Of a stretch of 64,000 nucleotides of DNA, positions 18,078 to 46,625 are shown piece by piece. The notes under the pieces were generated by a model. That model searched no databases, was not told the DNA's origin, and was given only the letters and a program-made list of their open reading frames with translations. Source of the DNA: Anaerolineales bacterium. GTDB taxonomy: Bacteria > Chloroflexota > Anaerolineae > Aggregatilineales > UBA2796. The stretch is taken from the NCBI GenBank assembly GCA_015075625.1, contig JABTTZ010000003.1:682001-746000 (forward strand). Reading direction: 5' to 3'. Every line of letters starts with the position of its first letter. Positions within the stretch are counted from its first letter, which is position 1. A program made the position numbers and the translations under genes.

Positions 18078-18185
18078 TGATGAGGTTGGGTCCTGCGCGG
18101 CGGAGTCCTCGAACCGCGTCAGGTCCTGACGGAAGCAGCGCTAAGGGGTATACTCCGGGTGCCGCAGGGGTGCCTGACCTCATCA
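18078..18185 (+). ncRNA. ffs: Signal recognition particle RNA (4.5S-type, small bacterial form)
   Basis: The ends pair as TGATGAGG with CCTCATCA. The apical part contains GTCAGGTCCTGACGGAAGC and then AGC, the near-invariant helix-8 core bound by Ffh (GGTCCGGAAGGAAGCAGC-type), and TCCTCGAACCGCG on the 5' arm. The length of about 108 nt fits the Alu-less bacterial form. Its dedicated promoter ends 6 bp upstream. It guides cotranslational targeting of membrane proteins with Ffh and FtsY, neither of which is in the window. The following gene begins about 20 nt after its 3' end. Confidence 0.9.
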
Positions 18186-43501: not shown

Positions 43502-43536
43502 CCCACTCCCGTTCATCTTCAATTCACGGAGGTGAT

Positions 43537-44802
43537 TTGACGGAAATAGCGATCTTGCATTACGCTGCTCCTCCTACGGTGGGTGGCGTCGAGACAACCA
43601 TCGCCCACCATGCACGGGGACTCCGCCGCATGGGGTATCGTGTGCGGCTTATTGCCGGTGCGCCAAGCAGTTGGGACGCCTCCGAAACATCCATTCCCCT
43701 TCTTGTAGACTCACGCTTCAGTTCAAGTGATGCTCATGTTTTGGCACTCAAACGCGATTTAGATCGCGGTATTGTCCCAGAGGGATTTAGTGCGTTTCAA
43801 AAGGAGGTGACGAATGCCCTACGCGATGCGCTGCGTGGCTGCCCAATTTGTATTGCGCATAACGTCCCCACGCTGCACAAAAATTTGGCGCTTAGCGCCG
43901 CATTGGAAACCCTTTGCCAAGAAGGGGCGATCCGCCTCATTGCGTGGTGTCATGATCTGGCATGGACAAACGATCTCTACGCCCCAGAGCTCCATCCCGG
44001 TGAGGCATGGGACGTGATTCGCCGAAGTTGGGTGGGAACACGTTATGTAACGGTTTCAGAGGCGCGTCGGCAAGAAGTGGCTCGGCTGCTCGACTTACCC
44101 CCGCCATCGGTAATGGTCATTCCCCCAGGGGTTGACTTAGTGGCGTTCCTTCACTGGACGCCTGCCATGCAGCACCTTGCAGAGATGCTGAACCTCCCCG
44201 CTGCGGACGTTATTCTACTCTTGCCTGCCCGCCTCACCCGCCGTAAAAACATCGCCCTCGCGCTGAGCGTCTTAGCCCATCTACGCCGCCTTTCAGGGGC
44301 AGATGTGCGGTTGGTGGTGACCGGTCCGCCGGGGGCGCACAACCCCGCCAACCCGGGTTATTTGGGAGAACTTCTCAATCAGCGGGCGGCGCTCGGTTTA
44401 GAGGACTCCGCCCACTTCCTCTATGCTCTCGGTGAAGGCGATACCCCCTTCATCCCCGACGATGCCACCCTTGCCAACCTATATGGGCTTGCCGATGCGT
44501 TATTCTTCCCCTCTACACAAGAAGGGTTCGGCATCCCCATGTTGGAAGCGGGGCTTGTTGGCTTGCCCATTTTCTGCGCCGATTTGCCCCCTCTACGAGA
44601 AACGGGCGGCGAGACAGCCACCTATTTTGATCCTGTAAACGCCGCTCCTCAAGACCTTGCGGCAGCAATTTGGAACGCTTTGCGTACTAATCCACTGCAC
44701 ACAATGCGCGTCCGCGTGCGACAGCACTATTGCTGGGAGGCGATTCTCCGCAACCACCTACACCCCTTGATTCAGTCTCTTTTGGAGGATACGGATAGAT
44801 GA
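43537..44802 (+). CDS. GT4-family glycosyltransferase coupled to a GpgS-like gene
   Basis: The 421-residue GT-B enzyme opens with AILHYAAPPTVGGVETTIAHHARGL, the glycine-rich acceptor loop of GT4 proteins. It has the middle WCHDLAWTND, VTVSEARRQEVARLL and VIPPGVDLVAFL, then LLLPARLTRRKNIALAL and the donor-site ALFFPSTQEGFGIPMLEAG (EX7E). It starts at TTG after GGAGGTGA. Its last four bases overlap the start of the GpgS-like gene as ATGA. That coupling suggests it adds a second sugar to the product of the downstream enzyme, as in mannosylglucosylglycerate synthesis; this is an inference from context. Confidence 0.85.
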   Translation: MTEIAILHYAAPPTVGGVETTIAHHARGLRRMGYRVRLIAGAPSSWDASETSIPLLVDSRFSSSDAHVLALKRDLDRGIVPEGFSAFQKEVTNALRDALRGCPICIAHNVPTLHKNLALSAALETLCQEGAIRLIAWCHDLAWTNDLYAPELHPGEAWDVIRRSWVGTRYVTVSEARRQEVARLLDLPPPSVMVIPPGVDLVAFLHWTPAMQHLAEMLNLPAADVILLLPARLTRRKNIALALSVLAHLRRLSGADVRLVVTGPPGAHNPANPGYLGELLNQRAALGLEDSAHFLYALGEGDTPFIPDDATLANLYGLADALFFPSTQEGFGIPMLEAGLVGLPIFCADLPPLRETGGETATYFDPVNAAPQDLAAAIWNALRTNPLHTMRVRVRQHYCWEAILRNHLHPLIQSLLEDTDR

Positions 44803-46625
44803 TCGCACCAACCAACCTTGCGCGTATCGATGATGCGCGTTCAGAGGCTCAGCGCGTGATGCTTGTTTTGGAAGATGAAACCGATCTGAGCGCTTGGGTG
44901 CGCCTTGCCACTGCCCTTTGCGCCTCTAGCGGCGAAATCCATCTACGGGGAGTGATCACGATTCCCGAAGGGACATCGCTAAGCGAAGGGGCAACCCGCG
45001 CCCGGAACTTCCGTGAGGCGCTCGATCAGGTTGCCCGTGATTTGCCGCTGGTGCATGATGAAGCACTGGTCACGGTGGATCACCACCCGATGGATCGCTT
45101 GATCCCCGAAATCAGCACCCGTCAGATTGATTTGGTGATTGTCCGTTGGGTTGCGCCGGATATGCTTGTTGGTGGCGTGCCGGTTGATGATGTCTTGCGG
45201 CGCGTCCCTTGCGATCTTGTTTTGTTGAACCGTGTCCCCGAAGAATCAAGCGCTCCCGTGCTGCTCTCTCTGCGCGGCGGTCCGAATATTGGGCTTGGGC
45301 TGCGGGTGGCAAAGGCGCTCGCAGAACAGGCGACAATCACCGTCTTTCATGCGGCGGATACGGCTCAGACGATCCCTAACCTAAGTGGGATCATGCGTGC
45401 TGACCCGCAGATTACGCGCACAGTAACGCTGATCAGCCAGGTGGCACGAGGGATTCTCCATGAGGCGCATACCCACAAGGCAATTGTTATGGGGGCAACC
45501 TTTCGTCAGCCTCAGTTTGCCACCAGCACAACCAGCCCCATTTTTAGCAAGATTTTTGAGGTGGTAACAATTCCTGTGGCGATGGTTCGCGCTTACCAAC
45601 CAGAAGCAGAAGCCTTTCATGTCCCGCGCCGTGCGCCAAAGGCAAAGCCTGCTGAAACGCTCTCCGTGCGTGTGGATCGCTGGTTTGCCGAGAATACCTT
45701 TCACAGCCGTGAGTTTGTCGATGTTGCCGCGTTGGTTGCCCTGAAAGAGCGGCAAAACCTCACAATCAGCTTGTGTCTGCCCGCCCTGAATGAGGAAGGG
45801 ACGGTGGGCAATGTCATCACAACGATGAAAAAGGCACTCATGGAGGATTTTCCCCTCCTAGATGAGATCGTCCTGATTGACAGCCAATCGACTGATCAGA
45901 CCGTCGCCATAGCCGAATCATTGGGCATACCTGTTTACAAACATCCCGATCTGCTGCCGGAGATGGGATCGTATGTGGGCAAGGGCGAGGCGCTCTGGAA
46001 AAGCCTCTCGGTGTTGAAGGGTGATCTGATTGCGTGGATCGATACCGACATCACGAACATTCACCCGCGTTTTGTCTATGGCTTGTTAGGACCGCTGCTC
46101 AAACGACAGGCAATTCAGTATGTGAAAGGGTTTTATCAGCGCCCGTTAACGATTGGGGATACCCTCCATGCGGTTGGCGGGGGGCGCGTCACGGAGTTGG
46201 TCGCCCGACCTTTGCTAAATCTGTTTTACCCAGAGCTATCAGGGATTATCCAGCCGCTCTCTGGGGAGTATGCCGGACGGCGCAGCGCCCTTCAGCAGAT
46301 GCCGTTTTTCAGCGGCTATGGTGTGGAGACAGGGCTTCTCATCGACCTTCACGAGCGCTTTGGATTGGAGGGAATTGCACAGGTAGACCTAGAGGAACGC
46401 ATCCATTACAACCAACCGCTGATGGGCCTTAGCAAAATGTCATTTGCCATTCATCAGGTGTTTATCGCCCGTATTGAGCAGCGCTATGGGGTAGAACTGC
46501 TTGACAGGGCAAACCGCAGCATGAAGTTAATCATTCATGAACCAGAGCGCTTTGCCCTTGATGTTGCCGAGATACGGGATGTTGAACGCCCACCCATTGC
46601 CAACCTGAACCTCGTGTCAGTTTAG
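44799..46625 (+). CDS. gpgS: Glucosyl-3-phosphoglycerate-synthase-like enzyme with N-terminal UspA-like domain
   Basis: GpgS transfers glucose from NDP-glucose to 3-phosphoglycerate, making the precursor of the solute glucosylglycerate. Residues about 320-600 match it well: LCLPALNEEGTVGNVI, DSQSTDQTVAIAESLGI, GKGEALWKSL, IDTDITNIHPRFV (donor DxD site), VKGFYQRPL and GGGRVTELVARPLLNL. Residues 15-270 form a universal-stress-protein-like region in two parts (AQRVMLVLEDETDLSAWVR, KAIVMGATFRQPQF, ATSTTSPIFSKIFEVVTIPVAMVR), not present in usual GpgS of about 320 residues. The gene symbol applies to the C-terminal half only. No GpgP phosphatase is adjacent. Confidence 0.82.
   Translation: MIAPTNLARIDDARSEAQRVMLVLEDETDLSAWVRLATALCASSGEIHLRGVITIPEGTSLSEGATRARNFREALDQVARDLPLVHDEALVTVDHHPMDRLIPEISTRQIDLVIVRWVAPDMLVGGVPVDDVLRRVPCDLVLLNRVPEESSAPVLLSLRGGPNIGLGLRVAKALAEQATITVFHAADTAQTIPNLSGIMRADPQITRTVTLISQVARGILHEAHTHKAIVMGATFRQPQFATSTTSPIFSKIFEVVTIPVAMVRAYQPEAEAFHVPRRAPKAKPAETLSVRVDRWFAENTFHSREFVDVAALVALKERQNLTISLCLPALNEEGTVGNVITTMKKALMEDFPLLDEIVLIDSQSTDQTVAIAESLGIPVYKHPDLLPEMGSYVGKGEALWKSLSVLKGDLIAWIDTDITNIHPRFVYGLLGPLLKRQAIQYVKGFYQRPLTIGDTLHAVGGGRVTELVARPLLNLFYPELSGIIQPLSGEYAGRRSALQQMPFFSGYGVETGLLIDLHERFGLEGIAQVDLEERIHYNQPLMGLSKMSFAIHQVFIARIEQRYGVELLDRANRSMKLIIHEPERFALDVAEIRDVERPPIANLNLVSV

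Follow-up and report, generated by a model that had tools for sequence, protein, structure and literature searches.

The window analysed here is a 64,000-nucleotide stretch of DNA from an uncultured Chloroflexota bacterium, and all coordinates refer to the whole stretch. At positions 43537–46625, its forward strand carries a pair of genes for a GT4 glycosyltransferase and for a fusion protein in which two Usp-like domains precede a GpgS domain. The GT4 gene comes first (43537–44802), as established by its frame, family profiles and its conserved position upstream of the fusion. It encodes 421 residues and contains the E-x7-E motif EGFGIPMLE. The fusion gene (44799–46625) encodes 608 residues and is defined by its frame, profiles, homologues and AlphaFold models. 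The two frames overlap as ATGA at 44799–44802. Reading of the sequence also locates a ribosome-binding-like element in front of each gene, GGAGGTG at 43528–43534, 5′ of the TTG start of GT4, and GGAGGA at 44784–44789, 5′ of the ATG of the fusion gene. The coordinates, the GT4/GpgS pair and its ATGA overlap had been given in an earlier sequence-only reading of this DNA, and the frames bear them out. A two-gene operon is one part of the explanation favoured below, which as a whole is considered reasonably likely.

The fusion protein begins with Usp-like domain 1 (residues 18–145; 44850–45233), delimited by AlphaFold models and fold matches. Usp-like domain 2 (residues 152–266; 45252–45596) follows and is additionally supported by an alignment profile. 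A linker (residues 267–288; 45597–45662), seen as a low-confidence stretch in the AlphaFold model, leads to the GpgS domain of family GT81 (residues 289–608; 45663–46622). This last domain is identified by profile, PDB matches and the motifs LPALNEE, GKGEALWKS, DTD, GGGRVTEL, GYGVE and RIHYNQ.

The GpgS assignment made in the sequence-only reading is upheld by profile and structure. The NCBIfam GpgS model PRK13915/NF010496 matches residues 291–603 of the fusion with 376.4 bits against a cut-off of 262, and GpgS chains in the PDB match the protein at E about 1e-67 in a sequence search. In structural comparison the domain adopts a GT-A fold, with Z scores of 33–35 for GpgS chains (best 35.1) and of 33–38 for GpgS and MpgS chains together. 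D415-T-D417, K395, G461-G-R463-V-T465, E510 and H536 are invariant among 23 sequences. These include the DxD and the conserved residues assigned to donor and acceptor motifs in such enzymes. Family membership and neighbouring genes suggest that the domain transfers glucose from NDP-glucose to 3-phosphoglycerate. The top structural match is the mannosyl-3-phosphoglycerate synthase (MpgS) of R. xylanophilus, with a Z score of 37.9 versus 35.1 for the best GpgS chain, as might be expected if the GT81 domain were an MpgS and the solute mannosylglycerate-based. However, most GpgS chains are closer to the domain in structurally aligned identity (39–44%) than R. xylanophilus MpgS is (38%), and it is the cut-off of the curated GpgS equivalog that is passed.

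The N-terminal part, modelled alone by AlphaFold, forms two Usp domains (predicted local distance difference test 88.4, predicted template modelling score 0.85). Pfam finds no family at E ≤ 1 in the first 285 residues of the window protein. Its Usp family PF00582 matches 66 of 72 aligned module sequences, and a profile built from the module alignment retrieves Usp chains of the PDB with E values down to 1e-11. Foldseek ranks Rv2623 first (E 3e-11), and cation-chloride cotransporters appear from 2.5e-8 on. Among solved folds, VIA-align gives the highest scores to C-terminal domains from KCC3 (Z 19.1, root mean square deviation (rmsd) 4.2, 247 residues aligned) and C. elegans KCC-1 (Z 19.0, rmsd 4.0, 246 aligned), followed by the archaeal cotransporter 3g40 (Z 18.3, rmsd 3.2, 223 aligned). 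The tandem Usp protein TTHA0350 (Z 16.7, rmsd 3.7, 230 aligned) comes after these cotransporter domains. At the sequence level, the alignment profile matches 3g40 weakly (E 0.67). The module is not assigned to the cotransporter domains in particular, in view of the Foldseek preference for Rv2623, the VIA-align margin of 19.1 versus 16.7 and the E value of 3g40. The predicted structure displays a transporter-like Usp fold. The region had been described from sequence as two-part and Usp-like; the check for a non-Usp fold gave none, and the model and fold matches agree with that description.

The fusion recurs widely. Strong matches that extend into the Usp part, full-length or nearly so, are present in 24 of 61 genomes, the window's own included; a wider tally that counts weak GT2 matches reaches 45 of 61. 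Named loci were taken as the best 80 of a scan of named genomes, and all counts out of 80 refer to these. By title they are mostly from Chloroflexota, with some from Deltaproteobacteria, Armatimonadota and Bacteroidetes and one from Pleurocapsa. Judged by these homologues, 24 of 61 genomes and 80 named loci, the fusion is more than a local oddity or a product of chance.

Among 301 sampled Chloroflexota genomes, GpgS exceeds the cut-off (E ≤ 1e-60) in 86, at 87 places. All but three of these places (84 of 87) have an open frame 599 residues long or longer, and the other three frames measure 587, 480 and 309 residues. Twenty frames drawn from the 87, the three short ones among them, were inspected, and 19 contain the Usp module (E ≤ 1.4e-35). 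The lone frame without it, of 309 residues, has lost its N-terminus at a contig end, and the 587- and 480-residue frames likewise reach contig ends. Given the length of these 84 frames and the module in 19 of the 20 inspected, GpgS in this phylum appears to be fused as a rule. The length of about 320 residues that the sequence-only reading took as normal for GpgS therefore fails for Chloroflexota. The module is also co-inherited with GpgS: their pairwise identities correlate at 0.80 over 75 sequences, a value equalled in 0 of 1000 permutations.

The partner enzyme contains Pfam domains PF13439 and PF00534. It is encoded directly upstream of the fusion in 59 of the 80 loci, and in 57 of the 75 where more than 700 bases upstream are present, in line with the coupling proposed from the window alone. 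GT4 and the fusion each occur in 24 of the 61 genomes, and 21 genomes have both. In all three fusion-only genomes (G037, G052 and G060) the fusion gene lies at a contig end. As for the GT4-only genomes, the gene lies at a contig end in G008, and G019 and G030 hold weaker homologues of 36–39% identity. In G019, a 38%-identical GT4 is located directly 3′ of an MGH1-like hydrolase (L148, 9095–12935, +), and no fused GpgS was found in this genome. Genus g12 (L031–L034, L054 and L056) displays a looser arrangement, with GT4 about 4–8 kb upstream of the fused GpgS, other sequence in between and no overlap. In G005, a GT4 match covering only query residues 142–413 is found at the end of a 1136-residue frame (L024, 9774–13184, −; L061, 4569–7979, +), which may be a fusion or an assembly error.

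The sequence-only reading had suggested mannosylglucosylglycerate as a product, which would make the GT4 the known mannosylglucosylglycerate synthase, MggS. Both are GT4 enzymes, and the MggS model (NF041101) aligns in register with the N-terminal half of the window enzyme (residues 3–254; whole-protein E 2.6e-13), a weak similarity in the half that binds the acceptor in GT4 enzymes. However, the score is 49.5 bits against a cut-off of 640. In a 57-row GT4 tree, the MggS-like rows form a clade of their own on a long branch, with support of 99/99, and the window GT4 falls outside it; only this separation is used, as the window genome's paralogues have very long branches and some are oddly joined. 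Moreover, a further GT4 of the MggS-like clade occurs near the pair in 28 of the 80 loci, with two such frames in L064, L100 and L117. The score far below cut-off, the separate clade and the presence of both kinds within one cluster together set the window GT4 apart as a different type, and MggS-like enzymes are additional genes in some clusters. The identification as MggS was therefore rejected and is quite improbable, and the proposed product loses its support. As the comparison covers MggS, mannosyl transfer by the GT4, for example of the kind catalysed by the phosphorylating enzyme MggA of Petrotoga (mannosylglucosyl-3-phosphoglycerate synthase), may still occur. The GT4 would extend glucosylglycerate, or its phosphorylated form, by a second sugar.

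The neighbouring genes lend support to glucosylglycerate metabolism, the type of pathway envisaged in the sequence-only reading. A GH13_18 enzyme is encoded near the pair in 27 of the 80 loci, and all 27 bear (T/S)ETN, a signature that PMC7178133 assigns to glucosylglycerate phosphorylase, whose specificity was traced via adjoining GpgS and phosphatase genes. Phosphatases are found near the pair in 29 loci, 24 of histidine type and five of the HAD MPGP type, and an MGH1-like hydrolase (PF22422) in 16. The L157 cluster combines fused GpgS, GT4, histidine phosphatase, MggS-like GT4, MGH1-like hydrolase and GH13_18. In G011, where no GpgS was found, an MggS-like GT4 lies directly 5′ of GH13_18 (L161, 7278–10235, +).

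These neighbours bear on two alternatives. The five MPGP-family phosphatases and the MGH1-like hydrolase would suit the MpgS assignment, but the signature in 27 of 27 adjoining GH13_18 enzymes points to glucosylglycerate, and MpgS is considered very improbable. Alternatively, in place of a free compatible solute, the pair may initiate a glucosylglycerate-primed oligosaccharide or polysaccharide comparable to methylglucose lipopolysaccharide of mycobacteria. The additional GT4 frames of the MggS-like clade would fit such a polymer. Mycobacterial GpgS supplies a polymer of the methylglucose lipopolysaccharide type (see also PMC4555173). By contrast, the adjacent phosphorylase, of glucosylglycerate type, and the MGH1-like hydrolase point to small glycosides being turned over, and no acyl- or methyltransferase was noticed by eye among the 40 largest neighbour clusters listed, antisense shadow frames being disregarded. 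Priming of a polymer is thus regarded as unlikely.

In the favoured explanation, the two genes form an operon for making a compatible solute based on glucosylglycerate, with a Usp-regulated GpgS as the entry enzyme. Glucosyl transfer to 3-phosphoglycerate would be the first step. The phosphate would then be removed by a phosphatase, whose gene lies next to the pair in numerous relatives and presumably elsewhere in the window genome, and the GT4 step would act before or after this removal. Via the conserved pocket of Usp2 around R159-G-G-P and G232, the tandem Usp module would control how active GpgS is, either through binding of a small ligand or through a shift in oligomeric state. By analogy, its mode of action may resemble that of the Usp-type domains found at the C-terminus of osmoregulated transporters. 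Across the phylum, the fusion is probably a ligand-regulated entry enzyme for a solute of this kind, and it may give cells direct control over how much protectant they make.

The module contains several near-invariant residues. R72, R159 and G160 are each kept in 71 of 72 sequences, G161 in 65 and G232 in all 72. R72 closes a conserved LSxGAxxARxxR segment in the alignment (residues 61–72; 44979–45014). R159 opens the RGGP loop (residues 159–162; 45273–45284), which by model and alignment is placed like the β1–α1 ligand loop of Usp proteins. In the four other Usp pairs compared (L125–L128), which belong to transporters or cysteine-rich proteins, the R159 position is occupied by A or S. Among the 61 genomes, the module finds its top sequence match outside GpgS in an APC-Usp-Usp-DUF389 membrane protein, to whose Usp pair it aligns (E 2.4e-8), and an APC permease with Usp domains matches as well. 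L125 (1268–4444, −) and L127 (2–2635, +), from relatives G012 and G040, encode large membrane proteins with a Usp pair resembling the GpgS-fused module; Pfam assigns the L125 protein an APC-like permease region, two Usp domains and DUF389, and the L127 protein looks similar by eye. The G004 protein encoded by L128 (2841–4109, −), in which two Usp domains come after a cysteine-rich region, is likewise soluble and bears a similar pair.

Several observations weigh against the favoured explanation. GH13_18, a partner enzyme in relatives and no part of the window finding, was not found in the window's own genome at E ≤ 1e-60, nor were an MGH1-like hydrolase or an MggS-like GT4 at E ≤ 1e-30. No HAD MPGP phosphatase rises above cut-off there, and the nearest histidine phosphatase is just 39% identical. 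In the module, the ATP motif G-X2-G-X9-G-(S/T) occurs in one of 72 sequences per half and in neither half of the window protein. The KdpD motifs for cyclic di-AMP (c-di-AMP), (A/G/C)XSXSX2N(Y/F) and SXS-X20-FTAXY, each occur in 0 of 72. The ATP-binding motif, of UspFG type, and the KdpD motifs are those given in PMC8214093. The module also diverges faster than GpgS, with a median pairwise identity of 26% versus 64%, which fits loose constraint as much as tuned sensing.

As the canonical ATP motif is lost and the KdpD motifs are absent, no ligand is indicated by motif. ATP/AMP sensing, put forward in the sequence-only reading, is weakened in its canonical Usp form, since each half lacks the motif in 71 of 72 sequences. 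Canonical ATP sensing was accordingly rejected as a default; a non-canonical nucleotide is possible. Overall, the observation behind that reading is confirmed and its interpretation partly supported.

The near absence of the ATP motif and the rapid divergence would also fit a scaffold role, structural or in oligomerisation, that involves no regulatory ligand, as would the failure of Pfam Usp to recognise the window copy. Tandem Usp proteins often dimerise. However, near-invariant polar and glycine residues at ligand-loop positions (R159, G160 and G232), together with R72, exceed the needs of a scaffold, which is considered possible but somewhat unlikely.

Regulation by a ligand admits a more specific proposal. 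Chloroflexota may have attached a tandem Usp module, of the type gating transporters of ions and solutes in other systems, to the enzyme of the committing step in osmolyte synthesis. One type of sensor, for an osmotic signal inside the cell such as ions or a nucleotide like c-di-AMP, would then control both ion flux and solute synthesis. This is tentative and rather unlikely. It stays in consideration because a diadenylate cyclase is encoded in 58 of the 61 genomes searched, the window's own included, and because, of the ATP motif, Usp2 retains just the initial glycine (G232), as in KdpD. According to PMC8214093, c-di-AMP-binding Usp domains of KdpD keep only that glycine. The missing KdpD motif counts against the c-di-AMP variant of this proposal.

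Elsewhere, the window contains a bacterial small signal recognition particle RNA (18084–18182, +; Rfam RF00169, 61.7 bits).

The window protein shares its catalytic domain, motifs and fold with mycobacterial GpgS of family GT81. The solved mycobacterial chains have about 326–344 residues and contain no Usp domain, whereas about 285 residues of tandem Usp stand in front of the enzyme in the window protein. No description of a Usp-GpgS fusion was found in the literature searched, including passages of PMC11505929. Within that literature, the protein is a known enzyme joined to a regulatory module undescribed for GpgS. The pair also points to a little-studied Chloroflexota solute pathway with a GT4 outside known MggS.

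Tandem Usp proteins such as Rv2623, UspE and TTHA0350 resemble the module in having two Usp domains per chain (Foldseek E 3e-11 to 4e-6, VIA-align Z 15–17). They are free-standing, whereas the window module is fused to a glycosyltransferase and nearly devoid of the ATP motif. The C-terminal domains of cation-chloride cotransporters (KCC, NKCC and archaeal CCC 3g40) display the same tandem Usp-like fold across nearly the whole module. The likeness is one of fold, at 11–12% identity, and the window module has no transporter and lies N-terminal to an enzyme. In PMC8280820, the cotransporter domains are placed in the context of volume and ion regulation; an ATP/ADP pocket was found in KCC1 and is suggested to be an ancient property of osmoregulatory transporters, with its effect on transport left to future work. 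What the Usp-type regulatory domains of osmoregulatory proteins sense is still unsettled in the field. Because a similar fold sits here on a soluble, simply assayed enzyme conserved across a phylum, its ligand, effect and key residues are directly testable. If the sensor proposal is true, the catalytic activity of this enzyme would directly report the signal to which Usp modules of this kind respond.

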